Positions 1-33,100 of a stretch of DNA of 44,812 nt are shown here, piece after piece (within the stretch, counting starts at the first letter, position 1; the number at the start of each line of letters is the position of its first letter). The stretch spans positions 1 through 44,812 of the forward strand of contig JAQTQJ010000006.1 in assembly GCA_028712255.1 (NCBI GenBank), in the 5' to 3' direction. This stretch comes from Candidatus Omnitrophota bacterium. GTDB taxonomy: Bacteria; Omnitrophota; Gorgyraeia; Gygaellales; Profunditerraquicolaceae. Position numbers and translations under genes: made by a program. Below the pieces are notes generated by a model. The model had not been told where the DNA came from and made no database searches. It was given only the letters and a program-made list of their open reading frames with translations.

Positions 1-2
1 GC

Positions 3-851
3 CTTTATGGTATAGCAATTTCAGCAGTAGGTATGCTTTCTACTTTAGGTATAACTTTGGCTACTGACGCCTATGGCCCGGTTGCAGATAATGCCGGTGG
101 AAACGCGGAGATGTCGAAGCTACCGCCTGAAGTTAGAAAAAGAACTGATGCTTTGGATGCCTTAGGTAATACTACTGCAGCAACCGGTAAAGGCTTTGCT
201 ATTGGTTCAGCAGCTTTAACAGCGTTAGCCTTAATTGCTGCGTATAAAGATCAGGTCTTGTTTTTTGGTAGAGATATTAATTCTAATATGATGAATCCTA
301 CGGTATTGATAGGTTTATTTTTAGGTGGAATGCTGCCATTTTTATTCTGCTCTATGACTATGCGAGCGGTAGGAAGAGCAGCAGGTAAAATTGTCGTAGA
401 AGTACGTAGACAGTTTAAAGAGATTATTGGTTTAATGGAAGGTAAGGCTAAACCTGATTATGCGCGTTGTGTAAGTATTGCTACTGCGGCAGCGCAGAAA
501 GAGATGATTGCCCCTTCACTTTTAGCAATCGCAGCTCCCATAGGCGTAGGGTTGTTGGTAGGAATTGATGCAGTTGCTGGGCTTTTGGTAGGGGCAACGG
601 TTACCGGATTTGTTTTGGCGGTTATGATGGCCAATTCCGGTGGCGCATGGGATAATGCCAAGAAGTTTGTGGAAGAGGGGCACCATGGCGGTAAGGGGTC
701 ATTGGCGCATAAAGCCACTGTAGTCGGTGATACAGTGGGGGATCCTTTTAAAGATACCTCTGGCCCAAGTTTGAATATATTAATAAAGCTTATGTCCATG
801 GTTTCTATTGTTTTTGCCTCCTTTATCATTAAAAATACATTATTTAAATAA
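3..851 (+). CDS. hppA: Membrane-bound proton/sodium-translocating pyrophosphatase, C-terminal part (5' truncated)
   Basis: This is the C-terminal 282 residues of an integral membrane pyrophosphatase, which couples PPi hydrolysis to H+ or Na+ export. The frame is open from the first bases of the window, so the gene starts outside it; an internal ATG at 33 is not the start. Family signatures are clear: [17 protein letters not shown] near the beginning, then [10 protein letters not shown], and several hydrophobic segments up to the C-terminus. The stretch [15 protein letters not shown] has Ala where K+-independent enzymes have Lys, which suggests the K+-dependent subclass. Whether it pumps H+ or Na+ depends on residues outside the window. 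A palindromic repeat starts at the stop codon and a rho-independent terminator follows, so this ends a transcription unit. Confidence 0.95.
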
Positions 852-911
852 AATCAAGGGGACGGTTCTATTTTTGCGAAGATTAGAAAAAGATAACCGT
901 CCCCTTGATTT
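851..911. repeat. Palindromic intergenic element, GGGGACGGTTCT type
   Basis: The arms read AAATCAAGGGGACGGTT and AACCGTCCCCTTGATTT around a loop of about 25 bases. The element begins on the last base of the hppA stop codon. Similar elements occur at 14380, 19610 and 29944. They look like REP-type non-autonomous elements; no transposase is present in the window. Confidence 0.85.
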
Positions 912-929
912 TTAAGTAGTTTACTTATA

Positions 930-971
930 AGACTCTGCTTCCTGGATAATCGGGAAACAGGGTCTTTTTTT
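930..971 (+). terminator. Rho-independent terminator after hppA
   Basis: An imperfect stem pairs AGACTCTGCTTCCTG with CGGGAAACAGGGTCT, including G-U pairs, and a run of T follows. It separates hppA from the sigma factor gene. Confidence 0.75.
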
Positions 972-980
972 GTTATTTTT

Positions 981-1010
981 TTGTTGTCAGGATGTTTTTA
1001 ATGCTATAAT
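981..1010 (+). promoter_or_regulatory. Candidate promoter of the sigma factor gene
   Basis: TTGTTG (981-986) and TATAAT (1005-1010) are separated by 18 bases. The ATG at 1018 lies about where transcription would start, so the transcript may be leaderless. Confidence 0.5.
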
Positions 1011-1017
1011 TATAGCC

Positions 1018-1617
1018 ATGGATGACTTGAAGTTTGTCCAAGGCTGTATTAAAGGTAGCAAACAATCCTGGTCTGAGTTCATTTCTCATTATTCTCACCT
1101 AATTTATAACTATATTTATAGTGTTTTATCCGTTAAGGGTAGAAGTGTTTCAGCTGAACAGGTTGAAGATATCTTTCAGGAGATATTTCATGTTTTGATT
1201 AAGGATAACTGTAAGAAATTGGCTACTTATAAGGCAAAAAATGGTTGTTCCCTAGCTAGTTGGCTCAGGCAAGTTACTATTAACTTTACCATTGATTATC
1301 TGCGAAAGTTTAAATCCACAGTTTCTCTTGACGCCCAGAATGAGGATGGTTTTAGTTTAGGCGATACCGTAGAGGATCTTTCAGCCGATGCTGTTGAATT
1401 CTTGAATGATAAGGATAGGCGTAAGACTTTGCAGGAGTGTATTGGTTTACTTGAGCCTGATGAACAGTTTTTTCTTGAATTACTTCTGAATCAGGAGTTG
1501 AGCTTGGAAGAGATAAAGGATTGTCTTAAAATTAATCGCGGGGCTGTGGATATGCGCAAGAGCAGGATATTCCGGAAACTACAGGATTGTTTTAAAAACA
1601 AAGGCTTTTTAGGTTAG
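1018..1617 (+). CDS. RNA polymerase sigma factor, ECF-like (sigma-70 regions 2 and 4)
   Basis: A 199-residue sigma-70 family protein. Region 2 is visible around residues 30-105 (VEDIFQEIFHVLIKD, then SLASWLRQVTINFTIDYLRK). Region 4 lies near residues 140-195 (LEPDEQFFLELLLNQELSLEEIKDCL, followed by a helix-turn-helix). The frame extends upstream to 970, but the ATG at 1018 is preferred because homology begins there and a TATAAT box lies just before it. There is no Shine-Dalgarno sequence, which fits a leaderless message. The next two genes encode an anti-sigma-like zinc-finger protein and a CHAT-TPR protein, so the factor is probably held inactive by its neighbour. Its target promoters cannot be told from the sequence. 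Confidence 0.88.
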   Translation: MDDLKFVQGCIKGSKQSWSEFISHYSHLIYNYIYSVLSVKGRSVSAEQVEDIFQEIFHVLIKDNCKKLATYKAKNGCSLASWLRQVTINFTIDYLRKFKSTVSLDAQNEDGFSLGDTVEDLSADAVEFLNDKDRRKTLQECIGLLEPDEQFFLELLLNQELSLEEIKDCLKINRGAVDMRKSRIFRKLQDCFKNKGFLG

Positions 1618-1658
1618 ATTTATTGAAATAATTCGTCTATTGAGGTAGGAGAAGAGAA

Positions 1659-2366
1659 ATGGTTAATTACTTAGAAAAAATAACAAAAATTATTTACCGG
1701 GAGCGTAAAAAGAGCCTCAGTTTTAAGGGAGAAGATCATCCGACTGAAGAAGATTTGGCTTGTTTTCTTGAAGGCAAGCTCCAGGGGCAAGATAAGGATA
1801 TTATTCAAAAACACTTGCTTAGTTGTGATATCTGCGCCGAATATTTAAGTACTCAGCTTAAGATAAAACCGCATCTAAGCCTGGCTGTTCCTACCCAACT
1901 GTTAGAGGATGTTGAAAAACTCTTTGGAGAGGAAGCTGGTGGAAATTTAATAGAGATATTTATTAAACTTAAGGAAAAAGCTATGGAGATTATTCAAACT
2001 ACTGGGGATGTGCTGGTTGGCCAGGAGTTAGTTCCTGCTCCGGTTCTGAGAAGTAGGAAGATTGATGAATTCAAAGAAGAAGTGAGCATTTTAAAGGATT
2101 TGCAACGAGTCAGAATATTGGCTAAGATTCAAAATAAGGGTAACAAGAGTTTTAATCTCACAATAAGTGTTAAGGATAAGCAGAGCCAAAAAATACAAAA
2201 GGATTTACGGGTTACTCTTATAAGAGATGGAATTGAATTGGAATCATACATAACTGATTCAGCCGGAAGCAGTTTTTTTGAAAATATTCTACCAGGTAAC
2301 TATATGGTAGAAGTTAGCCGCCAGGATCAGAGAGAAGCTGTAATTGATTTAAAAGTAAAAACCTAA
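1659..2366 (+). CDS. Soluble zinc-finger anti-sigma-like protein
   Basis: A 235-residue protein with an N-terminal zf-HC2/ZAS-like motif: His27 in HPTEEDLACFLEG, then His52-x3-Cys56-x2-Cys59 in KHLLSCDICAEYL. Such motifs bind zinc and hold ECF sigma factors. No transmembrane segment is visible, unlike many anti-sigma factors. The C-terminal half (about residues 145-235) looks like a beta-sandwich, ending in DSAGSSFFENILPGNYMVEV, typical of carboxypeptidase-regulatory-like domains. The gene lies 41 bases after the sigma gene with a good ribosome site (GGTAGGAGAAG), and 4 bases before the CHAT gene. Anti-sigma activity is inferred from the motif and position. Confidence 0.72.
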   Translation: MVNYLEKITKIIYRERKKSLSFKGEDHPTEEDLACFLEGKLQGQDKDIIQKHLLSCDICAEYLSTQLKIKPHLSLAVPTQLLEDVEKLFGEEAGGNLIEIFIKLKEKAMEIIQTTGDVLVGQELVPAPVLRSRKIDEFKEEVSILKDLQRVRILAKIQNKGNKSFNLTISVKDKQSQKIQKDLRVTLIRDGIELESYITDSAGSSFFENILPGNYMVEVSRQDQREAVIDLKVKT

Positions 2367-2370
2367 TTTT

Positions 2371-4566
2371 ATGCCTCATGCGGAAAATCTAATTTTAGAA
2401 GTCTTTAAGCAGGATGATTCGCTTAAGATGGGCTTGTTTGACCAGAGCCAAACTGCTCCTACCTTGCGCCATTATACTCAGGTAGGAGTTTCTTTTGTTG
2501 AATTGAAGTCATTAAGCATGGATATGGTTGGTATTTTGAACCGCCTTCCCAAAGATGAACCTTCTAAGATTGACCAGTTAAAAAGCCTGCAAAAGATTGG
2601 CCGTTTGTTTTGGGATCATCTGCTTAGCCGTTCAATTAAGGAAAAACTTAAAAATAACCCTCCTTGTGTATTAACTCTTTGTTTGGATGATGAACTTATT
2701 TTTATACCATGGGAATTGATTTTTGATGGTGTTGATTTTTTATGCCTGAAATTTAGCCTTGGACGATTAGTGCGTAGTAAGGGTGATTCTACCTTACTGC
2801 AGTATCGCGATCTACCAGCTAGCTTAAGGATGTTAATTTTGGTTAATCCCAATAATGACTTAAAATCCGCTTATGCTGAGGGTTTAAATATCAAAAATCA
2901 ATTCGGCCATAAAACTAAAAGAGTTCATGTTGATTTTAAATCTACTAATATTGATAAAAACTATGTGAAGAAGAATCTTTGTGACTATGATATCGTGCAT
3001 TTTGCCGGCCACTGTGAATTTGATAGAAAAGAGGATAAAGAGAGCGGATGGGTTTTAAGCGACGGGATCTTTAAAGTTGAGGATATTCTTAAGATGGGGC
3101 AGAGTTGTAGTTTGCCGGCTTTAGTCTTCTCCAATGCCTGCCATAGCGCGCAAGTCAAGCCAGTTTTGATAGATTCCGACTATCAAAGAGCCAGCTACGG
3201 TATGTCCAGCGCTTTTTTATTTGCCGGAGTCAGGCATTATATTGGATCTATCCGTAAAATTGAAGATAATGCTAGCCTTGTATTTGCACGGGAATTTTAT
3301 TCAAAGCTTATTACGGGAATAAGTGTAGGGGAATCTTTACGTTTGTCTAAATTAAAGCTAGTAAAGGAATACGGTTTGAATAGTTTACATTGGGTAAATT
3401 ATTTACTCTATGGTGATCCTGGATTTATCTTTTTTAAAATCCCACGGCATAGAGAAGCTAAACGCAAAGCAGGAGTTTTCTATAAGAAACTTATAATTAG
3501 GGCTAGTTTGTTTATTTTTCTGGTCTGTATGAGCATCCTTCTGGTGTTTTGGTTGCCTAGGATTAATCCACGAAAAATATATTTATTTCTTAACTCGGAG
3601 GTTCAGTACCGCAGAGGAAATAATCAGGAAGCGATTTCACTAGGGGAGCAGCTAATTAATAAAGATCAAGATTTCCTTGCGGTTTATCCTGTAGTTGCCA
3701 ATGCTTACCAGCGTCTTGGTTATAGAGATAAAGCGCTAAAATACTATTCTGATTATATGCTTAAAAGTGAGAAAGCTAATAATAAAATCCACCTTGTTCA
3801 GGCTTATATCAAACTGGGTTGGTTTTATCAATTGGATGGGCAATATTCTAAGGCAAAAGAATTATACGAAAAGTCGATAAGCTTAAGCCGTCAATTAAAA
3901 GATAAGCAAAATGAAGCGGTGGCACTAAGGAAGTTAGCTGTTTGGCATATCGATAAGAAAAATTATGAGCAAGCTTTGGATCTTTTGACCAAAAGTGCTT
4001 CAATTAACCTGGAGAGCCCTAATAATACGGAAAATGCTAAGAATTTAGCAAGCGATTATTTTGATATCGGTTTAGTTTTCGCTAATAAAGATGATTACCC
4101 AGCAGCAAAAGACTTTTACATTAGAAGCCTTAAGATTTTCCAACGGTTAAAACTTAATAATGAATTAAGCGATTGTTATTTTAATTTGGGGGAGATCTAT
4201 TTTTACGAGCATGAGTATCAGAAAGCGCTAGATTATTATTTTAGAGGATTAAAATTAGATCGAGAACAAAATAACAAAGTTAATTTAGCTAGCGGTTATA
4301 ATATAATAGGAGAACTTTATTTGGAAATTGATGATTTTGCTGCGGCGCAAAACTATTTTAAACAATCGCTCATATTATCAGAAGAGATTAATAGCCGCCT
4401 TGATTTGGCAAATGCTAATTATAACCTTGGGCTATTATATAAGAAACAAGGGAGGAAGAACTTTGCCAGAGAATATTGGCGCAAAGCACAACAGATATAT
4501 CGAGTAGTTGATCCAGATAGATTTCAGGAAACCCGGACACAATTGCTGGAGTTAGACGCTATTTAA
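2371..4566 (+). CDS. CHAT-domain putative protease with transmembrane anchor and TPR repeats
   Basis: A 731-residue protein in three parts. Residues about 1-360 form a CHAT domain, a caspase-like fold. The expected catalytic pair is present: His214 in IVHFAGHCEF and Cys257 in LVFSNACHSAQ. Residues about 374-396 form one transmembrane helix (SLFIFLVCMSILLVFWLP), preceded by many Lys/Arg, which suggests the CHAT domain is cytoplasmic. Residues about 410-731 contain repeated tetratricopeptide units (for example AYIKLGWFYQLDGQYSKAKE and CYFNLGEIYFYEHEYQKALD), which would then face the periplasm. It follows the sigma and anti-sigma genes directly, so one reading is that TPR-sensed input activates CHAT to act on the anti-sigma protein. 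The substrate is unknown. Confidence 0.88.
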   Translation: MPHAENLILEVFKQDDSLKMGLFDQSQTAPTLRHYTQVGVSFVELKSLSMDMVGILNRLPKDEPSKIDQLKSLQKIGRLFWDHLLSRSIKEKLKNNPPCVLTLCLDDELIFIPWELIFDGVDFLCLKFSLGRLVRSKGDSTLLQYRDLPASLRMLILVNPNNDLKSAYAEGLNIKNQFGHKTKRVHVDFKSTNIDKNYVKKNLCDYDIVHFAGHCEFDRKEDKESGWVLSDGIFKVEDILKMGQSCSLPALVFSNACHSAQVKPVLIDSDYQRASYGMSSAFLFAGVRHYIGSIRKIEDNASLVFAREFYSKLITGISVGESLRLSKLKLVKEYGLNSLHWVNYLLYGDPGFIFFKIPRHREAKRKAGVFYKKLIIRASLFIFLVCMSILLVFWLPRINPRKIYLFLNSEVQYRRGNNQEAISLGEQLINKDQDFLAVYPVVANAYQRLGYRDKALKYYSDYMLKSEKANNKIHLVQAYIKLGWFYQLDGQYSKAKELYEKSISLSRQLKDKQNEAVALRKLAVWHIDKKNYEQALDLLTKSASINLESPNNTENAKNLASDYFDIGLVFANKDDYPAAKDFYIRSLKIFQRLKLNNELSDCYFNLGEIYFYEHEYQKALDYYFRGLKLDREQNNKVNLASGYNIIGELYLEIDDFAAAQNYFKQSLILSEEINSRLDLANANYNLGLLYKKQGRKNFAREYWRKAQQIYRVVDPDRFQETRTQLLELDAI

Positions 4567-4628
4567 AAAAATGGGACCGTTTCTATTTTTCTACTATTTC
4601 TAAAAAATAGAAACGGTCCCATTTTTTT
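4565..4628. repeat. Palindromic intergenic element, GGGACCGTTTCT type
   Basis: The long arms ATGGGACCGTTTCTATTTTT and its complement flank a short loop. The element starts inside the stop codon of the CHAT-TPR gene and ends about 10 bases before the -35 box of the next promoter. Related copies lie at 40270 and 43917. With its terminal T-run it could also serve as a terminator. Confidence 0.85.
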
Positions 4629-4638
4629 AAAAAAAGGC

Positions 4639-4666
4639 TTGACAAGTATTATTTTTAGGTTATACT
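4639..4666 (+). promoter_or_regulatory. Sigma-70-type promoter of the sulfur assimilation operon
   Basis: TTGACA (4639-4644) and TATACT (4661-4666) are spaced 16 bases apart, 40 bases ahead of the Rrf2 regulator gene. It is one of the two best matches to the housekeeping promoter consensus in the window. Confidence 0.75.
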
Positions 4667-4691
4667 CTACTAAGTTTATAGAGATAGTATA
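4661..4691. promoter_or_regulatory. Candidate operator dyad for the Rrf2 regulator
   Basis: An interrupted dyad has outer arms TATACT (4661) and AGTATA (4686-4691) and inner arms TACTA/TAGTA. It overlaps the -10 box and the likely start of transcription, just upstream of an Rrf2-family gene. Autoregulation is inferred from the position. Confidence 0.4.
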
Positions 4692-4705
4692 GAAGAGGGC
4701 AAAAA

Positions 4706-5146
4706 ATGAGAATAACATATAAAGGTGATTATGCATTGAAAGCGCTACTGGATTTAGCTATACATTATGAGCATGGTTTATCAACTATTCATGATATTGC
4801 TAAGCGTATTAATGCTCCGGTTAAGTTCTTGGAACAGGTGCTTCTGGAGTTGAAAAATGGTGGTTATGTGGAGAGTAGGAGAGGTAAGGTTGGAGGTTAT
4901 CTACTGGCAAAAGCTCCAGGCCAAATTACACTTGGAGAGATCGTAAGGTTTATCGATGGGCCTATTGAACCGATAGCTTGTGTTGAAAAAAATTATACTG
5001 GCTGTGCTGATGTGTATAAGTGTGTATTCCGTGAAATTTGGTCCGATGTAGGTATCGCTATTTCGGAAATAGTAGATAATATTACATTTGAGAAACTTGC
5101 CAGTGATATGCAAGCCAGCAGAAAAACAGTAGCTTATCAAATTTAA
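4706..5146 (+). CDS. Rrf2-family transcriptional regulator (CymR/IscR-like)
   Basis: A 146-residue winged-helix regulator starting MRITYKGDYALKALLDLA, the usual Rrf2 opening, with recognition-helix sequence FLEQVLLELKNGGYVESRRG and wing GKVGGYLLAK. It keeps three cysteines at residues 92, 100 and 106, near the places where IscR (92, 98, 104) binds an Fe-S cluster. It could therefore sense Fe-S or redox state, or act like CymR through the cysteine synthase complex. The start has a good ribosome site (AGAAGAGGG). It is the first gene of the sulfate-to-cysteine/homocysteine operon, which it most likely controls together with itself. Confidence 0.9.
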   Translation: MRITYKGDYALKALLDLAIHYEHGLSTIHDIAKRINAPVKFLEQVLLELKNGGYVESRRGKVGGYLLAKAPGQITLGEIVRFIDGPIEPIACVEKNYTGCADVYKCVFREIWSDVGIAISEIVDNITFEKLASDMQASRKTVAYQI

Positions 5147-5181
5147 TTAAGAGTTAAAACCTAAACAAAAAGGAGACGGAA

Positions 5182-5907
5182 ATGAGCTTATTAGATAATA
5201 AGGATGATTTAAAAGAGTTGGTGGAAACGTTAAATTTTAAGGAGAAGGTAGACAGATCAAAACAGCTAATCAAAGAAGCTTATGCGTGTTATGGAGATTC
5301 GCTGGTAGTCGCGAATAGTTTGGGTAAGGATTCGGTGGCAGTATGGGATTTAGCAAAAAAGGTAGATCCAAAAATCCGCGGTTTTATCGTTACCACTAGG
5401 TTTAAACCTGCGGGAACGATAGCATTTATGAAGGAAGAAGTAGCAAGATATCCTGAATTAAAAGTTTATCAAAATGATTCCCAGATTCCAGATAAATTAT
5501 ATGAAACTGAGCCGGATAAATGTTGTGATATTCTAAAAGTTGAACCTGTGAAAAGATCTATTGAAGAGATGCATGTGAAATGTTGGGTAACGGGATTACG
5601 CTGTACTGAAGGGCGCACTCGTACTGATTTTAAAGAAGTAGAGGAAAGGGATAAGGGGTTGATTAAACTCAATCCTATTCTTATTTGGAAAGAGCGTGAA
5701 GTCTGGCAGTATCTGGCATTGTATCAGGTGCCGGTTAATCCATTGTATGCAGAAGGATATCGCTCGCTTGGTTGTGCGCCTTGCACAAAGATTACCAATG
5801 ATGATAATGAGCGCGCCGGCCGCTGGATTGGCACTAGTAAATGTGGCGGAGAGTGCGGTATACATACCCGATCGTTAAAAACTGGAATAAGCGCAAAGGG
5901 GATCTAA
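5182..5907 (+). CDS. cysH: Assimilatory APS/PAPS reductase, Fe-S type
   Basis: A 241-residue enzyme that reduces adenylyl sulfate (APS), or PAPS, to sulfite using thioredoxin. The adenylyl-binding loop is SLGKDS (46-51). The four cluster cysteines typical of APS-reducing enzymes are Cys114-Cys115 and Cys198-x2-Cys201, and the catalytic cysteine is Cys225 in the C-terminal ECGIHT motif. The cluster cysteines favour APS as substrate. The ribosome site AAGGAGACGG precedes the ATG. It sits between the regulator and the permease. ATP sulfurylase, which makes APS, is not found in this window. A thioredoxin gene that could serve as partner lies at 40441. Confidence 0.93.
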   Translation: MSLLDNKDDLKELVETLNFKEKVDRSKQLIKEAYACYGDSLVVANSLGKDSVAVWDLAKKVDPKIRGFIVTTRFKPAGTIAFMKEEVARYPELKVYQNDSQIPDKLYETEPDKCCDILKVEPVKRSIEEMHVKCWVTGLRCTEGRTRTDFKEVEERDKGLIKLNPILIWKEREVWQYLALYQVPVNPLYAEGYRSLGCAPCTKITNDDNERAGRWIGTSKCGGECGIHTRSLKTGISAKGI

Positions 5908-5909
5908 TA

Positions 5910-6884
5910 TTGATTAAGCTGTCTTTATTAATAGGCTTAGTTATATTTTTTGCTATAAACATGGGAGCTAGCGGTATAGCCCCCTCGTTTGCCGCAGTTT
6001 ATGGGGCAAAGTTAATCAAAAAAAAGAAGACGATAATCCTCTTTAGCATCTTTGTTGTTTTAGGAGCGATTCTTTTGGGCCGTAATGTCAGTCTTACATT
6101 AGGTAAGAATTTGTTACCAAAAGAATTCCTGACTTTTAATACGGTATTAGTAATTATTGCTTCTGCAACTTTGAGCCTATTTCTAGCCAATATTTTAAAA
6201 ATACCTCAGTCTACCAGCCAGGTAACGGTAGGGGCTATTACGGGAGTGGGATTATATTTCAAATACCTTTATTTTAAAGTTTTGTTAATTAAGATAATTC
6301 CTATGTGGATTATCCTTCCTTCAGCATCATATATTTTTACTTTCTTTTTATATAGGATTATTTACCCTCCCCGACATGGAAATTTATATATTTATGAAAA
6401 ATTATTTGCGCATGATAAGAAGATAAAAATTACCGGAATTTTGGTAAGTTGCTATGTTGCTTTCGCTATCGGATCGAATAATGTGGCCAATGCTGTTGGT
6501 CCTTTGTTTGGCGCAAATATTGTTGGTATAATGCCGGGATTGATTATTGTGGGACCACTTTTTGGAATAGGTGCTATATTACTGGGAGAAGGTAATATGG
6601 ATACGGCCGGTAAAGAGATAGTTCCTTTAGGTATACTTTCTAGTACTATCGTGTCCTTTGTGACTGCTACGCTTTTAATTTTTGCGTCTTTATTAGGGAT
6701 ACCACAATCATTGGTTCAACTTAATATGTGTTCTATTTTTGCTATTAGTTCACTAAAAAACGGCCATAAAACCACTTTAGACTCTCATTTAGCTAAAAAA
6801 ACATTTTTTGTGTGGGCTATTACTCCTATATTGTCAATAGCAATATCATATTTGTTATTATTTCTAATAAACAAGATTGGATAG
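5910..6884 (+). CDS. PiT-family permease, probable sulfate transporter (CysP-like)
   Basis: A polytopic inner-membrane protein of 324 residues, belonging to the inorganic phosphate transporter (PiT) family. The two family repeats are visible: [17 protein letters not shown] near the N-terminus and [19 protein letters not shown] in the second half, within about ten hydrophobic segments. I chose the TTG at 5910 because AAGGGG lies 8 bases upstream and it follows the cysH stop by 2 bases; the ATG at 5841 would overlap cysH by 67 bases. PiT proteins usually carry phosphate, but the CysP branch carries sulfate. Placement between cysH and cysK makes sulfate, or thiosulfate, the likely cargo. Confidence 0.82.
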
Positions 6885-6901
6885 GATTAAAAGGAGGTCG
6901 A

Positions 6902-7837
6902 ATGCCTTTTTCTAATAAGATTGCTAATAATGTTATTGAGTTGATTGGTAATACTCCATTGGTAAGACTTAATCGTCTGGTCAAACAGGATTCTGCACAA
7001 GTTTTAGCAAAATTAGAGTATTTTAATCCCGGAGGGAGCTTAAAAGACAGAATTTGTTTCTCAATGATTGAGGATGCAGAAAAAAAAGGGTTACTCAAAG
7101 AAGGATTTACGATTATTGAACCGACATCAGGCAATACTGGGATTGGTTTAGCGATGATTTCGGCAGTTAAGGGATATAAGTGTATTCTCACGATGCCAGA
7201 GGCAATGAGTTTGGAAAGAATATATATACTTAAATCTTATGGAGCCCAGGTTGTGCTAACTGCGGCTCAGGAAGGTATGAACGGAGCAATAAAGAAAGCT
7301 GAACAAATATTTAAGAAAACTCCTAATGCTTTTATGTTGCATCAGTTTAAAAATCTTTCTAATCCGCAGGCGCATCGTAAAACAACGGCAGTTGAGATAT
7401 TAGAAGCTACCCAAGGTAATTTAGATGCTTTTGTGGTAGGAGTCGGTACAGGAGGAACAATTACTGGAGTTGGTGAAATTTTAAAGAAACATAATCCATC
7501 TATAAGGATAGTTGCTGTTGAGCCTAAGAATAGCCCTGTTTTGTCAGGCGGAAAAGCGGGCCCGCATAAAATTCAAGGGATTGGTGCTGGGTTTATTCCG
7601 GAGATATTAAATTTAGGTATTATTGATTCTATAATTCAAGTCAAAGATGAAGATGCTTTTAAGGTTTCAAAGTTACTTGCTAAGGATGAGGGTATCTTCG
7701 CTGGGATTTCTGCTGGTGCAGCTGTGTGGGCTGCTTTAAAGGTTGCGGAAGAACTGGGAAAAGGTAAAACAGTAGTTACGGTATTGCCGGATACTGGAGA
7801 AAGATATTTCTCTATGCACCAATATTTCGAGGCTTAG
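6902..7837 (+). CDS. cysK: Cysteine synthase (O-acetylserine sulfhydrylase), copy 1
   Basis: A 311-residue PLP enzyme of the CysK/CysM fold, making cysteine from O-acetylserine and sulfide. The PLP lysine is Lys48 in GGSLKDR, the substrate loop is TSGNTG, and the phosphate loop is GTGGTITG. The start at 6902 is set by a very strong ribosome site (AAGGAGGTCG); an upstream ATG at 6812 lies inside the permease gene. A second copy with the same length and motifs lies at 14441. Serine acetyltransferase, the source of O-acetylserine, is not in the window. Confidence 0.94.
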
Positions 7838-7899
7838 CAACTCACTTAGCATTAAGAGGTATTGCGTTGGTGTTGTCTTACTGGCAAGAGAGGAAATGT

Positions 7900-9339
7900 A
7901 TGAAAATTAAATTAAATGGTAAAGATCGGTTGATTGATGATCAAAATTCATCGATTACTAATTTACTGAGGATAGCTAATGTAGAAAACCCCCAAATGGT
8001 TTCTGTCCAACTCAATGGCGAGTTTGTGGATAAGGTAAAATTTGATAAGATTCGACTGAAAGAGAATGATCAGCTGGATTTTCTTTACTTTATGGGAGGC
8101 GGAAGCCAGTTAAAATTTATTACCCGGATCTTGCATACGAAATTCCTTAAAGAGGACCCACATGGATCTTTACATATGCCGGTTTATGATGATGTGACTT
8201 TTGAGTTTAAAACTGCTGAAGACTTGGAGTTGGCCTTCTCAGGTAGGAAGCAGGCGCATATGTATTCCCGAATAAGTAATCCGACAGTTGAGCATTTCGA
8301 GCAAAAGGTTAAAATGATGTCTGATGCTTTAGGAGTTATGGCTCTTTCTTCTGGGATGGCGGCGATCTCTAATACGATATTAACTATAGCAAAAGCAGGG
8401 GATAATATTATTACCAGCAAGCATCTTTTTGGCAATACTTATTCGTTGTTTGAAAAAACTTTAAAGGATTGGGGGCTTAAGACGCGCTATACTGATTTAA
8501 CTAAGCCTAAGGATGTGGCAAGCCTTATTGACAATAAAACAAAAGCGATATTTTTAGAGACAATTACCAATCCTCAACTTGAGGTGGCTGATATTTTGTC
8601 TCTTTCTAAAATAGCCAAAAAAACAAATATCTTACTTATCGCCGATACCACGATGACACCGCCGTATATTTTTTCGGCTCGCGATTTTAGGGTGGATATC
8701 GAAGTTATCTCAAGCACCAAATGGATCTCTGGTGGTGCTACTAGTGTTGGCGGATTGATTATTGATTATGGTATCTATGATTGGAAGAAGAATGATAAGC
8801 TCAAAAACGATGCAGTCAAATTCGGGCCTTTTGCTTTTATCAGCCGGCTTAGGCGTGAAGTATATAGGAATATTGGAGCCTGTATGTCTGCGCATAATGC
8901 TTATTTGCAAAGCCTAGGCCTTGAAACATTGCCGCTTAGACTTGATGTTGCTTGCGCCAATACTCAGAAGATTGCTGAATTTTTGAAGCAAGCAAAGCAG
9001 GTAAAAAGCGTGAATTATCCTGGGCTTAAAGGATCACTTTTTTATAAAATCGCCCGCAAGCAGTTCGGTGAAAAACCGGGTGCGGTTTTAACTTTTAACC
9101 TGGGGTCAAAAAGCGAATGTTTTAGATTTCTGAATAATTTAAAACTTATCCGACGTGCCACTAATCTGCAGGATAGCCGTTCTTTAATTTTGCATCCGGC
9201 TTCAACGATCTTCTGCGAATATGATGATAAGTTAAAAAAAGAGATGGGGGTTGGCGATACATTGATCCGGCTGGCTGTCGGGATTGAAGATTGCCGTGAT
9301 TTAATCTCCGATATCAAGCAGGCCTTGGAGGGTATATAA
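7900..9339 (+). CDS. ThiS-like sulfur carrier fused to O-acetylhomoserine sulfhydrylase (HcyS-MetY fusion)
   Basis: A 479-residue fusion. Residues 1-68 are a ThiS/MoaD-type ubiquitin-fold sulfur carrier ending in LDFLYFMGGG, matching the SFVGGG end of the free ThiS at 17507. From residue 71 (LKFITRILHTKF) it continues with no linker into a Cys/Met-metabolism PLP enzyme, with YSRISNPT at 122-129 and PLP Lys274 in VISSTKWISGG. The ATG at 7900 has GAGAGG upstream. No in-frame ATG, GTG or TTG lies close after the Gly run, so separate translation of the enzyme is unlikely. The next genes are an E1-like enzyme and a JAMM protease, as in the Wolinella HcyS-HcyF-HcyD-MetY route. The enzyme probably uses carrier thiocarboxylate to convert O-acetylhomoserine to homocysteine. 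The fused carrier needs cleavage after Gly67 or Gly68 to be charged. Confidence 0.9.
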   Translation: MKIKLNGKDRLIDDQNSSITNLLRIANVENPQMVSVQLNGEFVDKVKFDKIRLKENDQLDFLYFMGGGSQLKFITRILHTKFLKEDPHGSLHMPVYDDVTFEFKTAEDLELAFSGRKQAHMYSRISNPTVEHFEQKVKMMSDALGVMALSSGMAAISNTILTIAKAGDNIITSKHLFGNTYSLFEKTLKDWGLKTRYTDLTKPKDVASLIDNKTKAIFLETITNPQLEVADILSLSKIAKKTNILLIADTTMTPPYIFSARDFRVDIEVISSTKWISGGATSVGGLIIDYGIYDWKKNDKLKNDAVKFGPFAFISRLRREVYRNIGACMSAHNAYLQSLGLETLPLRLDVACANTQKIAEFLKQAKQVKSVNYPGLKGSLFYKIARKQFGEKPGAVLTFNLGSKSECFRFLNNLKLIRRATNLQDSRSLILHPASTIFCEYDDKLKKEMGVGDTLIRLAVGIEDCRDLISDIKQALEGI

Positions 9340-10145
9340 TGGATTTTACTGAACAACAGATAGAGCGTTATAGCCGCCACATTATTCTTAGTGATGTTGG
9401 TGTTGAGGGCCAGGAAAAAATTTTAAACAGTAAGGTGCTTATTATTGGAGCTGGTGGGCTTGGTGCACCGGCCGCTTTATATCTGGCAGCTGCAGGAGTG
9501 GGCACTATTGGGTTAGTCGATGGCGATAACGTTGAATTATCAAACCTGCAACGTCAGGTAATACACTTTAATCCTGATGTTGGTAAACCTAAGGTGTTTT
9601 CTGCTCAAGAAAAGATATCTTTAATAAATCCCGACGTAAAAGTAAATACGTATCAAACTAGGGTTTATTCAGGTAATATTGAAGGGATTATTAAGGATTA
9701 TGATTTCATTATTGATGGCACAGATAATTTTGCCGCTAAATTTTTGATTAATGATGCCTGTGTATTTGTTGCTAAGCCTTTTTCCCATGGAGGAGTCTTA
9801 CGTTTTGACGGACAGAGTATGACTTATGTGCCTGGCCAGGCATGCTATCGATGTGTATTCGGTTCACCTCCTCCAAAAGGCGCAGTGTCCACTTGTTCAC
9901 AAGCCGGTATTCTTGGGGCTGTTGCCGGGATGTTGGGTACAATTCAGGCAACTGAGGCATTAAAATTTATTCTCAGAAAAGGAGATCTTCTTATAAATCG
10001 CCTGTTGATTTTTAATGCATTGGATATGAAGTTTCGCCAGGCACAATTTAGAAGAAATCCGGATTGTCCGGTTTGTGGTAATAATCCAACTATTAAAGAA
10101 TTGGTTGATGAAGAATTGCCTGCTTGTGATTTGAAAAAGAAATGA
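9339..10145 (+). CDS. E1-like sulfur-carrier adenylyltransferase (ThiF/MoeB/HcyF family)
   Basis: A 268-residue E1-type enzyme that adenylates the C-terminal glycine of ThiS/MoaD-like carriers before sulfur transfer. Visible features are the nucleotide loop GAGGLG (37-42), the QRQ segment near residue 72, DGTDN (126-130), zinc cysteines 169/172 (CYRC) and 243/246 (CPVC), and Cys186 in STCSQAG where ThiF-type enzymes carry a conserved cysteine. It overlaps the stop of the carrier-MetY fusion by one base (TAATG) and overlaps the JAMM gene by 4 bases, so the three are translationally coupled. It is the only E1-like gene in the window and may also serve ThiS at 17507. Confidence 0.93.
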   Translation: MDFTEQQIERYSRHIILSDVGVEGQEKILNSKVLIIGAGGLGAPAALYLAAAGVGTIGLVDGDNVELSNLQRQVIHFNPDVGKPKVFSAQEKISLINPDVKVNTYQTRVYSGNIEGIIKDYDFIIDGTDNFAAKFLINDACVFVAKPFSHGGVLRFDGQSMTYVPGQACYRCVFGSPPPKGAVSTCSQAGILGAVAGMLGTIQATEALKFILRKGDLLINRLLIFNALDMKFRQAQFRRNPDCPVCGNNPTIKELVDEELPACDLKKK

Positions 10146-10549
10146 GAATAATAAATAAGGTTATTAGGGAGATAATAGATCACGCTAAAAAAGAATCCCC
10201 ACTTGAAGCATGTGGGTATCTTGGCGCTAAAGACGGCATAATCATTAAAAAATTTACGTTGACCAATATTGATAAAAGCAGCGAGCATTTTTCTTTTGAT
10301 CCAAAAGAACAATTTATAGCAGTTAAAGATGCCCGAGCACAGGGATTGGATTTGTGCGCTGTGTATCACAGCCATCCATCCAGTCTTGCCCGTCCATCAC
10401 AAGAAGATATAAAATTGGCATATGACCCGGCTATGAATTATTTTATTGTTTCTTTGTTAGGGGTGAAAGAAGATGTGCGGGTATTTTCAATAAAAAATGG
10501 CGAAGTTAACGAAATTAGTTTGGAGGCCGTTGATGATAAAAGGGTATGA
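10142..10549 (+). CDS. JAMM/MPN+ metalloprotease (HcyD-like)
   Basis: A 135-residue M67-type zinc protease. The JAMM motif is complete: Glu22, His76-x-His78, Ser86 and Asp89 in YHSHPSSLARPSQED. Free-standing bacterial JAMM proteases of this size trim residues after the Gly-Gly of sulfur carriers; HcyD of Wolinella does this to HcyS. Here the natural substrate is the fused carrier encoded two genes upstream, where it would release the carrier by cutting after Gly67 or Gly68. It overlaps the E1 gene by 4 bases (ATGA) and the sulfite reductase gene by 17. No signal peptide is present, so it acts in the cytoplasm. Confidence 0.92.
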   Translation: MRIINKVIREIIDHAKKESPLEACGYLGAKDGIIIKKFTLTNIDKSSEHFSFDPKEQFIAVKDARAQGLDLCAVYHSHPSSLARPSQEDIKLAYDPAMNYFIVSLLGVKEDVRVFSIKNGEVNEISLEAVDDKRV

Positions 10550-12875
10550 GTTACCTCTTGGGTTAGATGCGGAGATCGATTCACTTGAGGAATTGATTCG
10601 TAAGCATAGATTAGGTGAGGTTTCGGCAACTGAACTTAAGGCTCACCGTGTTCCGTTTGGTGTATACGAACAGCGGCAAACTGATACCTATATGGTGCGT
10701 ATCAGGTGTGCTGGAGGATTTATTACGCCTGTACAACTAGAAGGGGTTAGTGCTATTGCTTTGCGATACGGCATAGGAGATGTACATGTTACTTCTCGTC
10801 AGGAATTACAGATTCATTATGTAAAACTTGATGATATTATTGCTATTATGCGGCGCCTTAAAGAAATTGGATTATCAACTCGCGGTGGAGGTGGTAATAC
10901 AGTTCGTAATATAGCCTGTGCAGTGGACGCGGGAATTGACCCTCAGGAAATATTTGATGTTTCTGTATATGTAAGCGCTTTGACTACGAGATTGATTGCT
11001 GAAAGTGATTCCTGGAATTTACCCCGAAAATTTAAGATTGCTTTTTCCGGCTCAGCAGAAGATGAGGGGTATGCTACTATTTCTGATGTTGGTTTTATTG
11101 CAAAAATAAAAGATGGAAGAAAAGGGTTTAGGGTTTATGCGGCAGGTGGATTAGGCGCTAAATCAGCAGAAGGAAAATTATTGCTAGATTTTATCGATGC
11201 GGAGGAAGTTTATCCGGTAACTAAGGCATTGAAAAACGTTTTTTTTAAATACGGAAACCGCAGGAATAAACACGCCGCACGTTTGCGTTCTTTATGGCAA
11301 AACTTAGGTGAGGAAGAGTTTAGAAAACGTTTTTCTGAAGAGTATGCGATAATCAATGCGCAAGGAGTAACCCCGTTACTTATCGAAGACCAAGTACAAG
11401 TAGTGGCTCCTACGGCTGGCGGCCAAAAGATATCTTTTGACCAGGAGGATTTTTTAGTATGGAAAACACGTTTTGTTAAACCGCAAAAACAAGAAGGTTT
11501 GTATTCGGTATTAATTCCAATAGAGCTTGGTTTTATTTCCTGCGACAGCGTGGCTGGGCTGGCAAGGTTTTTAAAGCCTTTTGGCAGTGATGTGTTGCGT
11601 ATGACAAAAGACCAGAATTTTCTGGTTAGGAATATCCCGTCAGATTATCTATTCGATCTCTTTATTTTTCTTAAAAATACTATCAGCCAACTAAATCAAC
11701 CGGCACTTTACGCAAGAATTCTTTCTTGCACCGGGGCTTCAACTTGTCAGCTTGGTATTTGTTTTTCCCGCCAAGCTGCGCGGGCCTTGATGGATGAGCT
11801 TAAAAATAGTAATTTGAATCTGGATAAAATTGGAGATATTAAGATTAATTTTTCCGGATGCCCTAATTCTTGCGGCCACCATCCGGTAGCTGATTTGGGT
11901 TTTTCCGGAAAGGCTTTAAGAAATCTTGATGGACTGTATCCGGCATATAGTGTATTTGCCGGAGCAATTATTAATGACGGGCAAACTAAACTTGCAGAAT
12001 ATATCGGTGAAATTCCTGCTAAAGCTTTAATTTTATTGGTAAAGGATTTTCTAAGTGCCTTTATATCCAAAGCAGAAAGTTTTACGAACTTTCGTGAATA
12101 TATTCGCGAAAGCGGAAAGGTGGATTTAAAGGAAATTATTTTGCGTTATTCTAAGGTACCTGGTTTTGGCGAAGACAAAAAATATTATTTTGACTGGGGA
12201 GCGGATACCATTTTTTCTTTGGCTGAACGCAAGGCGGGTGAATGCTCTGCTGGATTCTTTGATCTACTTGAAATGGATTTAAATAACATAAGAAATACTC
12301 AAGCTGCATTGGCAAAAGATACACTGGATGTTGGTCAAAAAGAGAAATTACTGGGTGAGCTTGTATTTTATGCAAGCCGTGCGCTTTTGATTACCCGCGG
12401 GCTTGACGCAAAAAACCACAAGGAGTCATATGAAGGATTTCTTAGTCATTTTATAGGAACGGGGCTTGTTGATGAGTCATTCCGCGATATTATTACGGAC
12501 GCTCAGCGTGGTGATACTGATAAGATTTTAGCAAAGCAAGCCCAGGTGCTCGAATTGGCTAAGGCTGTACAGGCGCTATATGAAACTATGGATAATAGTT
12601 TTAATTTTAAAAAACCTGTTGTTATGCCAGAAGCTAGTAAAAAGGAAGTAGCCATAACCATAGTCAAAGACTTTCGGGGAGTTACTTGTCCGCTTAATTT
12701 TGTAAAGACTAAAATCGAACTTGCTAAATTAAAAACAGGAGATCTTCTGGAAATATGGCTTGATGATGGAGCTCCTATTGAGAATGTTCCTGGTTCAGTT
12801 AAAGCTGAGGGGCATAAGGTGCTTGGGCAGAAACGTATAGATAATTATTGGGCAGTGACTATTGAGAAGAAATAG
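10533..12875 (+). CDS. Sulfite reductase with helical domain and C-terminal TusA domain
   Basis: A 780-residue multidomain protein. Residues about 1-500 form a nitrite/sulfite reductase, with half-domains containing VPFGVYEQRQ and GDVHVTSRQELQIH. The siroheme/4Fe-4S ligands are Cys399-x5-Cys405 (CTGASTC) and Cys443-x3-Cys447 (CPNSC). Residues about 560-690 form an all-helical part that looks HEPN-like. Residues about 712-780 form a TusA/SirA domain with its sulfur-carrying cysteine at 719 (DFRGVTCPLNF); family members usually have CPxP, here CPLN. It would reduce sulfite to sulfide and could pass the sulfur as a persulfide to the carrier system. The start at 10533 is fixed by GGAGG 6 bases upstream; an earlier ATG at 10497 lacks one. 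Confidence 0.9.
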   Translation: MIKGYELPLGLDAEIDSLEELIRKHRLGEVSATELKAHRVPFGVYEQRQTDTYMVRIRCAGGFITPVQLEGVSAIALRYGIGDVHVTSRQELQIHYVKLDDIIAIMRRLKEIGLSTRGGGGNTVRNIACAVDAGIDPQEIFDVSVYVSALTTRLIAESDSWNLPRKFKIAFSGSAEDEGYATISDVGFIAKIKDGRKGFRVYAAGGLGAKSAEGKLLLDFIDAEEVYPVTKALKNVFFKYGNRRNKHAARLRSLWQNLGEEEFRKRFSEEYAIINAQGVTPLLIEDQVQVVAPTAGGQKISFDQEDFLVWKTRFVKPQKQEGLYSVLIPIELGFISCDSVAGLARFLKPFGSDVLRMTKDQNFLVRNIPSDYLFDLFIFLKNTISQLNQPALYARILSCTGASTCQLGICFSRQAARALMDELKNSNLNLDKIGDIKINFSGCPNSCGHHPVADLGFSGKALRNLDGLYPAYSVFAGAIINDGQTKLAEYIGEIPAKALILLVKDFLSAFISKAESFTNFREYIRESGKVDLKEIILRYSKVPGFGEDKKYYFDWGADTIFSLAERKAGECSAGFFDLLEMDLNNIRNTQAALAKDTLDVGQKEKLLGELVFYASRALLITRGLDAKNHKESYEGFLSHFIGTGLVDESFRDIITDAQRGDTDKILAKQAQVLELAKAVQALYETMDNSFNFKKPVVMPEASKKEVAITIVKDFRGVTCPLNFVKTKIELAKLKTGDLLEIWLDDGAPIENVPGSVKAEGHKVLGQKRIDNYWAVTIEKK

Positions 12876-29995: not shown

Positions 29996-30068
29996 TGTTT
30001 TGAAACCCCTTTCTTTTCCCCCCTTATTTACCCTTGTTTTTGCTTACCTATATAGCATACTTATATAT

Positions 30069-30100
30069 ATGTAGAGACGCAAAATTTTGCGTCTCTACAT
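30069..30100. repeat. Perfect 32-base palindrome upstream of the giant gene
   Basis: ATGTAGAGACGCAAAA is followed immediately by its exact reverse complement. It lies 34 bases before the giant gene's ATG, in the expected leader region. GTAGAGACG-type palindromes are known as dispersed repeats in other bacteria. It may be a mobile repeat, or an operator or attenuator; nothing in the sequence decides this. Confidence 0.85.
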
Positions 30101-30134
30101 AAACAATTTCATTAAAAGACCGGTAGGCAAACCA

Positions 30135-33100
30135 ATGAAGCAATCCAAAACCTTTAAAATTCTTTCCATCCTCCTGTGTATATCTCTTTTATTACAGCAG
30201 ACCGGCTTTGCTCAAGTAGCCAATGCAGAGCTTAACATCGCCGGTCACCTGCAGAACCTGCATTCCAATATCTTTATCGAGAAGTTCCGCCCCCTGCACC
30301 TAAGAAGCCTCTCCTACGACAGCCTGACTAACAACTTCAAGCTCCTCCTAGACAAAGGAGACCAGTTTAAGCAGCTTCAGGGACAGTCCCCTACGGGGAC
30401 AGTCCCTGAACTTCAATCCATCACCCAAGGCCTACTCAACTACTTCTTCATAGGCTTAGCCCTACCCAACGACACCTTCTGGGTCAACCTACGCCCCGAT
30501 TCTCCCAATGACATCATTGACCCACTGCTTGCCCAAACAGAAGTAGGCAAGATACTCTTAGAAGCAGACCTAGAGCTTAAAAAAGACACCGCAGACGCCA
30601 CTAACCCCTCAACTCCTCAAGGCAAAGACTACTGGAATAAGCTCTACACCCGTGCCCAAGAGCTCTATGGCACCCAAAACGTAACCATCCCCACGCTTAC
30701 CCGTCCCTGGATAGTCCCGGATGAGATCATCATTCGTGAATCAATAGATTCAGCTTATGTTTACAAAGCCACCCTTAAAGTAATGCTAGAACAAGACTAC
30801 CTAAAAGACAATACCACCTACTCCTTTAAAGACGACCGAGAAAAACAACTCAATGAATACTCTGCTCAACTCCTAAGAGAAGAGATCATCCCTAACCTCA
30901 TTAAACAAATCAACAACGCTAAACGCTATGCACCACTCAGACAGGTTTACTACTCCTTAATTCTAGCCCAATGGTTCAAAGCACGCTTCATGTCATTGGA
31001 GCAGGGTCAAACCCACTCCGTGTCATTGCGAGGAGCTGCTAAACAACAAGTCGGCGACGAAGCAATCTCAAACCTCATCAACTCCAAAAACCTCACCAAC
31101 CTTAAATCCAAAATCCCCTACTCCGTAGCTACCTACTTCAATGCCTACAAGGAGAACTTTACTAAAGGTCAATACAACCTCCAGGAACCAATCACTACTC
31201 CTTATGGTCAAACCATCAGGAGTTATTTTTCGGGAGGGATATCTAGTCTTATGAGTTCTCCTCAGTTATCTGAGGAATTAACCAGGCAAATGGGAGCAGC
31301 GGGTAATAGTTCAGTTATTCCGGTTGCCCAACCTCTAACTATGGGTAACCATGACTTGGGAGTTAAAGTTGATAGTGACGATACAGTGCAGATTGAGGCC
31401 CAAGGCGCGGGGGAGAGTACTCCGAGCACAACTTCTGCTGTAGCACAAACAACAGGAGTGTTTCCAAATTCTACTGATCAAACCCAGATAAGAGGAATGG
31501 GTCCATTAAAAGATAAGACACAAGAAGAAATTAGAGAACTGGTTGATTCAGGGCAGGCTACTGTAGTTGAGCAAGGCGGCCAGTTATTCGCGGTGCCACG
31601 CATTGCCGGTGGTGACGGCAGGCAGGATGAAATTAGGGCGAAAACATTAAAGACTACCAAGGCAAAGAGGGAAAAAGTAGGAAAAACTATTCCAGGAATA
31701 CCTTTAAAATCACAGAATGAATATAACCGCGACGTCGATCTTAAAGAAAAGTTTCTAAAGAAACAGGATATGGTTGATCGTTTTATTGCTCCTGGGTTTG
31801 AAGGCTTCGAGAAATTTCAGCAGCTATATAACGAGGTACGTAGCGTCATAGACCGTTTGTTAATCGCTCAGGGGCTGAATCCACAAGAGTTTCAGTTTTT
31901 CCTCGCAGATACGGTCAGCCCCAATGCATATGTCGTGAATTATTACAATGCTATTGTCGTAAATTTAGGGCTGATTCGCATGCTGACGGAATATTCCCGA
32001 GCCAATAATATTGATGTAACGCAAGATGCATTGGCTTGGGTTCTGTCTCATGAAATTTTGCATATCGTACAGAACCGTCGCGAAATTGATGAAGGGCGTG
32101 TTGATGAAAAGAAGGGATTAGTCGACCGGCATGCGGAAGATAGAGGGAAAGAGTATCAAAGTGATTTGTTGGCGTTGTGGTTGATGGATCGCGGCGGTTT
32201 TTCAGTCAGATCAGCACCGCACGTTCTTGCCGGTATTGATCATTGGCTGAGAGCCCGCGGCGAGCGTGATACCGTCTGGGGTACCCATCCACAAATAGAA
32301 GAGCGTTTAAGAAAGTTGGAGCATCAAATTTTGACTTATCACTGGCAAAATCAGGATGTTCCAGCCACTACGTTGAATTCTGTCTCTATTGTTCAACAAA
32401 GAACGCGGTTCAGAGAATTTCAAGAACAAGTTATTAATGTCACAAGCGCATCTGGCCTTATTTCCTTATTGAATCAGGCAAGGTCTATTGAAGAGTTGCA
32501 TTTTGCAATGCTTATTGGTTTTGAGGTTTTGCCTGATGTTGAAAAGCTATCTCAGAGCCAGGTTCAGATAGTGTTTGAACAGCGGACAAGAGAGTTTGCC
32601 GGTGAAGATGATGCTAGAAAAGTTTTGTTTGAATATATGAAAAATGAAATTTATGTGATGTTGGGGTGGATGACAGAGCCAAGCCTGGATACTTTTAGAC
32701 GTTTAGGCGAACAATTATCTGTTGAAACAATTCTTCGTATTTATGAATTGGGAGTTCCGAATATCTTCTCTTTATCGATTAATGTCGATAAGTTGCAGGA
32801 AAATAAACGTCATGAACAAGGAGAAGCTGTTCTTTCGCGTCTTCGTCACGCTGTGTATTCGCTAAACGGCCAATCGCGCGCAAGCGACCGATTTAAAATG
32901 TATGCTAGCGGTTTCTTATACGGATTGTATACAAGAATGATCAATGATGCCAAGCAAGGGACATTGAGCTTGGAGCAAGCCCGAAGATTTCTTACCGATT
33001 TGGTAAATATGCAAGAATCGCAGGGATTTTTTGAAGGATATTTATTTACTACGCCGTTAAATGGTATGGCCAACGCTTTGAGTTCATCAAGAGTCTATCG

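Follow-up and report, generated by a model that had tools for sequence, protein, structure and literature searches.

A sigma factor, a soluble zinc-finger anti-sigma protein and a transmembrane CHAT protein in Omnitrophota: a candidate membrane switch for transcription

How might a signal received beyond the inner membrane reach a sigma factor whose anti-sigma partner is soluble? The question is raised by three adjacent genes near the start of a 44,812-nucleotide stretch of DNA from a Candidatus Omnitrophota bacterium (assembly GCA_028712255.1, contig JAQTQJ010000006.1; the whole stretch is called the window below). They encode a sigma factor of extracytoplasmic function (ECF) type, a zinc-finger anti-sigma protein, and a protein in which a CHAT peptidase domain is followed by a transmembrane (TM) helix and tetratricopeptide repeats (TPR). 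The initial annotation had read these genes as a signalling chain from ectodomain to sigma factor, and the analysis described here supports that reading in part. On balance, the operon is probably a membrane switch in which a sensor-activated CHAT protease cuts the soluble anti-sigma protein and frees the ECF sigma factor.

The three genes are present and adjacent as annotated, all on the forward strand, with the anti-sigma and CHAT genes 4 nt apart (Table 1). The sigma factor matches the NCBIfam sigma70-ECF model at 69.5 bits (cut-off 42.9), and its Pfam matches to Sigma70_r2 (26.3 bits, cut-off 24) and Sigma70_r4 (24.4 bits, cut-off 24.1) both lie barely above their thresholds; regions 2 and 4 are thus matched and region 3 is not among the Pfam matches, which is the ECF architecture. 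The third protein matches Pfam CHAT (PF12770) at 94.9 bits (cut-off 24), with TPRs matched as well, and is the only Pfam CHAT match above cut-off in the genome, a 1.7 Mb assembly of 37 contigs.

Table 1. Features of the sigma, anti-sigma and CHAT operon, in window coordinates
Feature	Position	Strand	Remarks
Extended -10 promoter element TGCTATAAT	1002..1010	+	Read from sequence, 7 nt 5' of sigma ATG
ECF-type sigma factor, 199 aa	1018..1617	+	Pfam regions 2 and 4 above cut-off; NCBIfam sigma70-ECF
Soluble zinc-finger anti-sigma protein, 235 aa, beta-rich C-terminal half	1659..2366	+	No TM segment above threshold
Zinc-binding anti-sigma motif, H27...H52-x3-C56-x2-C59	1737..1835	+	
Arg131 of anti-sigma, invariant linker residue	2049..2051	+	95/95; candidate P1 or recognition point
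CHAT-TM-TPR protein, 731 aa, putative transmembrane receptor protease	2371..4566	+	
CHAT peptidase domain, residues 75-349	2593..3417	+	Pfam CHAT
Putative catalytic His214	3010..3012	+	95/95
Putative catalytic Cys257, sole invariant Cys of CHAT domain	3139..3141	+	95/95
Single TM helix, residues 369-387	3475..3531	+	K/R-rich N side; model helix 372-394
TPR superhelix, putative ectodomain	3568..4563	+	Pfam TPRs; model pLDDT mostly >90

The annotation held that its reading would fall if the genes were not conserved together; followed from both the anti-sigma and the CHAT side, they are. In 74 non-redundant places with an anti-sigma match below 1e-20, drawn from one scan and from part of the matches of a second, a CHAT gene lies next downstream in 66 of the 66 loci with at least 600 nt downstream, and a sigma gene lies next upstream in 69 of the 70 with at least 700 nt upstream. 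The seventieth stretch is masked, and the apparent loss of its sigma gene was rejected for that reason. From the CHAT side, among the best 80 of 153 loci from one scan, both other genes are present in 63 of the 65 that have 1600 nt or more upstream; one of the remaining two is masked (L211) and the other, L182, is a true exception. Of the 15 loci with less room, L181 has 700 nt and carries neither of the two, and nothing is seen in the four that have 0-135 nt. In 91 of 107 loci the anti-sigma and CHAT genes are separated by -10 to +15 nt. Adjacency to a sigma gene is not a general trait of CHAT genes, since no annotated sigma stands beside the plasmid CHAT genes in the three neighbourhoods examined, from Rhizobium, Agrobacterium and Paracoccus.

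After redundant CHAT loci were merged (149 places to 113), 95 trios were kept in which the anti-sigma protein has at least 205 residues, the CHAT protein at least 340 and the sigma factor 170-260; many come from related Omnitrophota, so that the counts are not of independent events. The best-matching named records are mostly Candidatus Omnitrophota, and the trio is also found in records titled Nitrospirae (L139, L141) and Deltaproteobacteria (L169, L170) and in the Desulfobacteria Desulfotignum (L145), Desulfonema magnum (L149, a complete genome) and Desulfobacteraceae (L161). One record is titled Planctomycetales bacterium (L152), and its proteins fit the profiles of the Omnitrophota family no worse than those of members do; the title is probably wrong. 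Thirty-six relatives gave no anti-sigma match. A search for the CHAT-TPR protein in the 18 of these that belong to the same genus, family or order gave four matches, three of them pieces reaching a contig end and one a TPR-only match carrying internal stops.

The CHAT protein looks like a protease, to judge from its conserved His/Cys dyad. His214 and Cys257, which had been noted as intact, are encoded at those residues, and His210 and His214, the only invariant histidines, are unchanged together with Cys257 across the 95 trios and all ectodomain types. The TM segment of the window protein has six Lys or Arg before it and three after. A hydrophobic segment follows the CHAT domain in 49 aligned CHAT proteins, in all of which the 20 residues before it hold more Lys and Arg than those after, except in L046 (4 against 5); the broken CHAT gene of L072 was left out of the CHAT domain alignments. 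Beyond this segment the proteins diverge. The CHAT part is constant, and what follows the helix may be TPRs, discoidin (F5/8 type C) domains, a trypsin-like domain, TPRs with a CsgG-like domain, or nearly nothing. Pfam places F5/8 type C domains in three divergent members (L121, L122, L060), a Trypsin_2-type domain with or without DUF4384 in the two Nitrospirae loci, TPR with CsgG/LpoB-like domains in L145 and L149, and CsgG alone in L170. At the other end, a class III cyclase domain precedes CHAT in the Desulfobacteria loci L145 and L170 by Pfam, and in L161 and L169 by eye, which fits a cytoplasmic N side.

Domains of the F5/8C, trypsin-like and CsgG-like types are mostly extracytoplasmic, and class III cyclase domains mostly cytoplasmic. 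Taken with the charge bias, the far-side domain types and the N-terminal cyclase therefore make it likely that CHAT lies on the cytoplasmic side and the variable domain across the membrane, as the initial annotation had suggested for CHAT and TPR. A quick CHAT tree of 35 rows (16 outside the TPR_A type and 19 within it, 9 of these hand-picked and 10 random, with three rows cut before the ectodomain excluded) needs seven changes to explain eight ectodomain labels, the minimum possible for eight, and so each domain swap is seen once; one row, L123, stands on a very long branch and shows no TM segment above threshold. A constant CHAT with a changing far side is in keeping with a receptor protease whose sensors can be exchanged. 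Structural comparison speaks to the far side: a fold search with the CHAT-TM-TPR model returned TPR solenoids (MalT/Rap/LGN-like) and chains aligned through the TPR part, and the CHAT profile gave only weak matches among PDB sequences, 8tl0 (E 0.01) and 8rot (E 0.032).

The anti-sigma protein of the window carries the H-x3-C-x2-C motif with an upstream His or Cys ligand that marks zinc-binding anti-sigma proteins. The motif at residues 52-59 is kept in 91 of the 95 trios, in all of which residue 27 is His or Cys. The Pfam zf-HC2 model scores 15.6 bits on the window protein, below its cut-off of 22.2, and is passed by five of the seven CHAT-linked orthologues scanned (L139, L141, L145, L149 and L169; not L161 or L170). 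The protein had been called soluble, and indeed no TM helix above threshold was found in it, with weak calls in L128 and L170 alone among the CHAT-linked relatives listed. The annotation had also described an extra beta-sandwich half as a possible cleavage or recognition part. Its existence is borne out by an AlphaFold2 model with beta strands from residue 97 onward (mean predicted local distance difference test score, pLDDT, 79), and it is a conserved part linked to CHAT; the role given to it is still a proposal. A likeness to immunoglobulin-like or macroglobulin folds (Z at most 8.1; 4zjg, root-mean-square deviation 2.0 over 77 residues) was rejected as an identity, the arrangement being common and not diagnostic.

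Within the anti-sigma protein, Arg131, Arg184, Ser196 and Tyr215 are invariant in all 95 trios and Glu193 in 94, and the residue after Arg131 is Ser or Gly in 82. Clan CD proteases often cleave after Arg, and for this reason Arg131 is attractive as a cut site. Its surroundings are modelled less surely: residues 121-140 have pLDDT of 73-76, and later blocks 71-93. Of the 15-residue segments in TPR-type relatives, 119-133 is one of the four with the lowest entropy; this is not so in the 16 others, and what all share is therefore Arg131 itself and not its surroundings.

A triplet in Leptospira interrogans (L218:1981-5005) has the same order, with a sigma factor (43 bits), a 242-residue protein and a CHAT protein (215 bits); the record is called a plasmid, yet carries dnaE and thiD. 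The middle protein, missed under default filters, reaches 19.9 bits with the filters off, and its HHalign score against the anti-sigma protein is 34.6, where the best of 30 shuffles gave 20.8. Arg131, Arg184 and Tyr215 align in it and the Arg-Ser motif is kept, and a Pfam search found no zinc-finger match in it. By this alignment the beta half is the part that stays with CHAT. That Leptospira keeps the beta half and Arg-Ser next to CHAT without the zinc finger supports a link between the beta half and CHAT.

The operon promoter points to control at another level than transcription. In 56 of 72 TPR-type relatives (72 of the 74 TPR_A rows) a TATAAT hexamer lies 4-11 nt 5' of the sigma start codon, and in 46 it has a TGN extension, against means of 0.95 and 0.1 in mononucleotide shuffles. 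This predicts a housekeeping-type promoter and, because the extended -10 element abuts the start codon, a leaderless sigma mRNA. A housekeeping promoter would imply a steady supply and therefore control at the protein level; no sign of autoregulation of the operon was seen.

Zinc-finger anti-sigma proteins and their sigma factors are known as families to bind each other. The sigma factor and the soluble anti-sigma protein would be made together, and the third protein would be the receptor, with CHAT in the cytoplasm, one TM helix and a sensor across the inner membrane. A signal at the sensor would activate CHAT, which would recognise the beta half of the anti-sigma protein and cleave the protein, probably within the linker that joins this half to the zinc-finger part, with Arg131 as the best candidate; the freed sigma factor would then switch on its genes. 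The TM helix and sensor appear to sit on the protease instead of on the anti-sigma protein, because CHAT has a TM helix and nearly all linked anti-sigma proteins are without one. The window anti-sigma likewise differs from membrane anti-sigma proteins cut by regulated intramembrane proteolysis in having no TM helix above threshold. A precedent for a CHAT protease cutting a sigma inhibitor is Csx29, which cuts Csx30 and so lifts the inhibition of CASP-sigma (PMC10028731). Rosetta-stone support for the link between CHAT and the anti-sigma protein comes from the apparent DdvA-type fusion of zinc finger and CHAT. PDB entry 8rot, a 'CHAT domain-containing protein', shares its zinc-finger stretch with 8rlz, 'Antisigma factor DdvA'; from their identical aligned stretches the two seem to be the same protein, in which case DdvA carries both parts in one chain.

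Several observations weigh against this switch. The binding of sigma and anti-sigma, the cleavage, the cut site, the release and the signal are all things that we infer; the window zinc finger falls below its Pfam cut-off, and the motif is missing in four of 95 relatives. Arg131 may be structural, since Arg184, Ser196 and Tyr215 are equally invariant. CHAT relatives without adjoining sigma and anti-sigma genes exist at L182 (4.2 kb upstream) and L181 (0.7 kb). The receptor form is not universal, as no TM segment above threshold is seen in the CHAT protein of Leptospira, and L118 has just 44 residues beyond CHAT and so nearly no far-side domain. In the published case it is unclear how the cutting of Csx30 frees the sigma factor (PMC10028731), and the site at which Craspase orthologues cut Csx30 is reported not to be conserved (PMC11106740).

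Some of this evidence could be read otherwise. CHAT might be no protease but a membrane anchor that binds the beta half and, by a change of shape, keeps or lets go of the anti-sigma and sigma pair; cleavage of the anti-sigma protein is, after all, a deduction, and the beta half is the very part shared with CHAT in Leptospira. Without catalysis, however, it is hard to see why His214 and Cys257 should be so strictly retained whatever the phylum or ectodomain type, and this makes an anchor unlikely. If catalysis is granted, the substrate could still be the sigma factor itself or a third protein, the three genes merely sharing a pathway. Caspase-like proteases in other CRISPR cascades cut several partners, and the anti-sigma protein is here a putative substrate, which leaves some room for this idea; the tight spacing of the anti-sigma and CHAT genes and the co-conservation of the beta half with CHAT count against it, and we regard it as very unlikely.

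The arrow might also run the other way, with the zinc site of the anti-sigma protein sensing a signal in the cytosol and CHAT serving as the output, a death or defence protease produced along with the operon. Cytoplasmic zinc anti-sigma proteins do often sense redox (PMC7406223), and in CRISPR systems CHAT proteins serve as effectors (PMC10028731). Yet the operon promoter is of housekeeping type, the zinc ligands may be lost while the trio persists, DdvA appears to fuse zinc finger and CHAT, and it is CHAT that bears the sensor-like domains, so that this reversal seems to us quite improbable. The membrane switch remains the reading that we prefer.

Several features of the surroundings were recorded alongside. 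An H+-pyrophosphatase gene lies at 3-851, just 5' of the operon, and a same-strand copy lies 5' of sigma in 43 of the 95 trio loci, at a median of 118 nt. Hairpins of GGGGACGGTT / GGGACCGTTTCTATTTTT stand on both sides of the operon, at 855-910 and 4572-4630, and similar strings occur 5' of sigma in many relatives; they are candidate terminators or REP-like (repetitive extragenic palindromic) elements. An Rfam scan of window positions 1-12000 gave zero matches. In one relative a c-di-GMP-I-GGC riboswitch (L042:9075-9163) lies a short distance 3' of the CHAT gene. A BNR/Sortilin-type family, defined as a single-linkage cluster, follows the trio in 35 of 95 loci at a median of 642 nt (for example L157:7898-9574), and its protein is a possible output or partner. 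No sigma-dependent promoter was identified, the regulon having been looked for among neighbour genes only. Farther along the window, GC skew is negative (-0.151) at 30001-32000 alone among the 2-kb steps, where an open reading frame of 2770 residues (30087-38399) starts.

If the switch operates as proposed, a caspase-fold protease at the membrane would be a direct receptor-to-transcription switch in bacteria, one protein replacing the usual membrane anti-sigma protein and protease cascade. More tentatively, and with rather less than even confidence, at least three phyla may carry a general class with a constant cytoplasmic CHAT, exchangeable outside sensors and an own anti-sigma protein cut after an invariant Arg, of which Craspase-type circuits would be a recruited soluble branch; the CRISPR-linked CHAT and anti-sigma circuits, Craspase and its kin, would then derive from an older signalling logic outside CRISPR. 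The trio would also be a plain non-CRISPR home for the CHAT and anti-sigma pairing of Craspase and DdvA. It supplies a putative protease and substrate with one candidate for the cut site, and it hints at a platform on which sensors are exchanged as modules. For Omnitrophota, represented in the records used here almost wholly by metagenome assemblies, it opens a way into the study of signalling.

Among known systems, Craspase likewise joins a CHAT protease to an inhibitor that binds an ECF-like sigma factor, with cleavage relieving the inhibition (PMC10028731). It differs in that Csx29 is activated by RNA through Cas7-11 and has TPRs before CHAT, whereas the window trio has one TM helix, the order CHAT, TM, sensor, and a zinc-finger anti-sigma protein. 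Membership in Craspase was rejected: the type III-E sigma model NF041236 gives 31.0 bits against a cut-off of 100, no CRISPR model exceeded its cut-off on the three window proteins, and a PADLOC scan of the same three found no type III-E part, neighbours not having been scanned for cas genes. A profile search of PDB sequences with the anti-sigma protein named neither Csx30 nor CalpT, which by itself shows nothing. DdvA of Myxococcus xanthus, anti-sigma factor of DdvS, also joins a zinc-finger anti-sigma part to CHAT with a cognate ECF sigma factor, and the signal that inactivates it is given as unknown (PMC4374960); it seems to have both parts in one protein, in contrast to the two genes of the window, where the TM helix and exchangeable sensor are on CHAT. 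In CalpL/CalpT/CalpS a protease again cuts an anti-sigma protein bound to an ECF sigma factor, but the protease is SAVED-Lon, the signal cyclic oligoadenylate and the system CRISPR-linked (PMC11417357). ECF54 sigma factors have CHAT proteins in their gene context and a proposed proteolytic control; they are described without an anti-sigma protein (PMC8999054), unlike the trio, where one is present in every readable locus.

The literature searched, which was mostly without subscription papers, preprints and the main ECF classification, contained no description of an operon of TM-CHAT, anti-sigma and sigma, and that classification may include a group with such a gene context. With RseA- and RsiW-type membrane anti-sigma proteins, an envelope signal leads to proteolysis and release of an ECF sigma factor; there the anti-sigma protein spans the membrane, and in the trio the protease does. 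The pairing of CHAT with anti-sigma proteins is already known in CRISPR settings, CHAT genes near ECF54 sigma factors have been noted (PMC8999054), and what is new within the literature searched is a putative CHAT and anti-sigma switch that stands outside CRISPR, is anchored in the membrane and carries exchangeable sensors.

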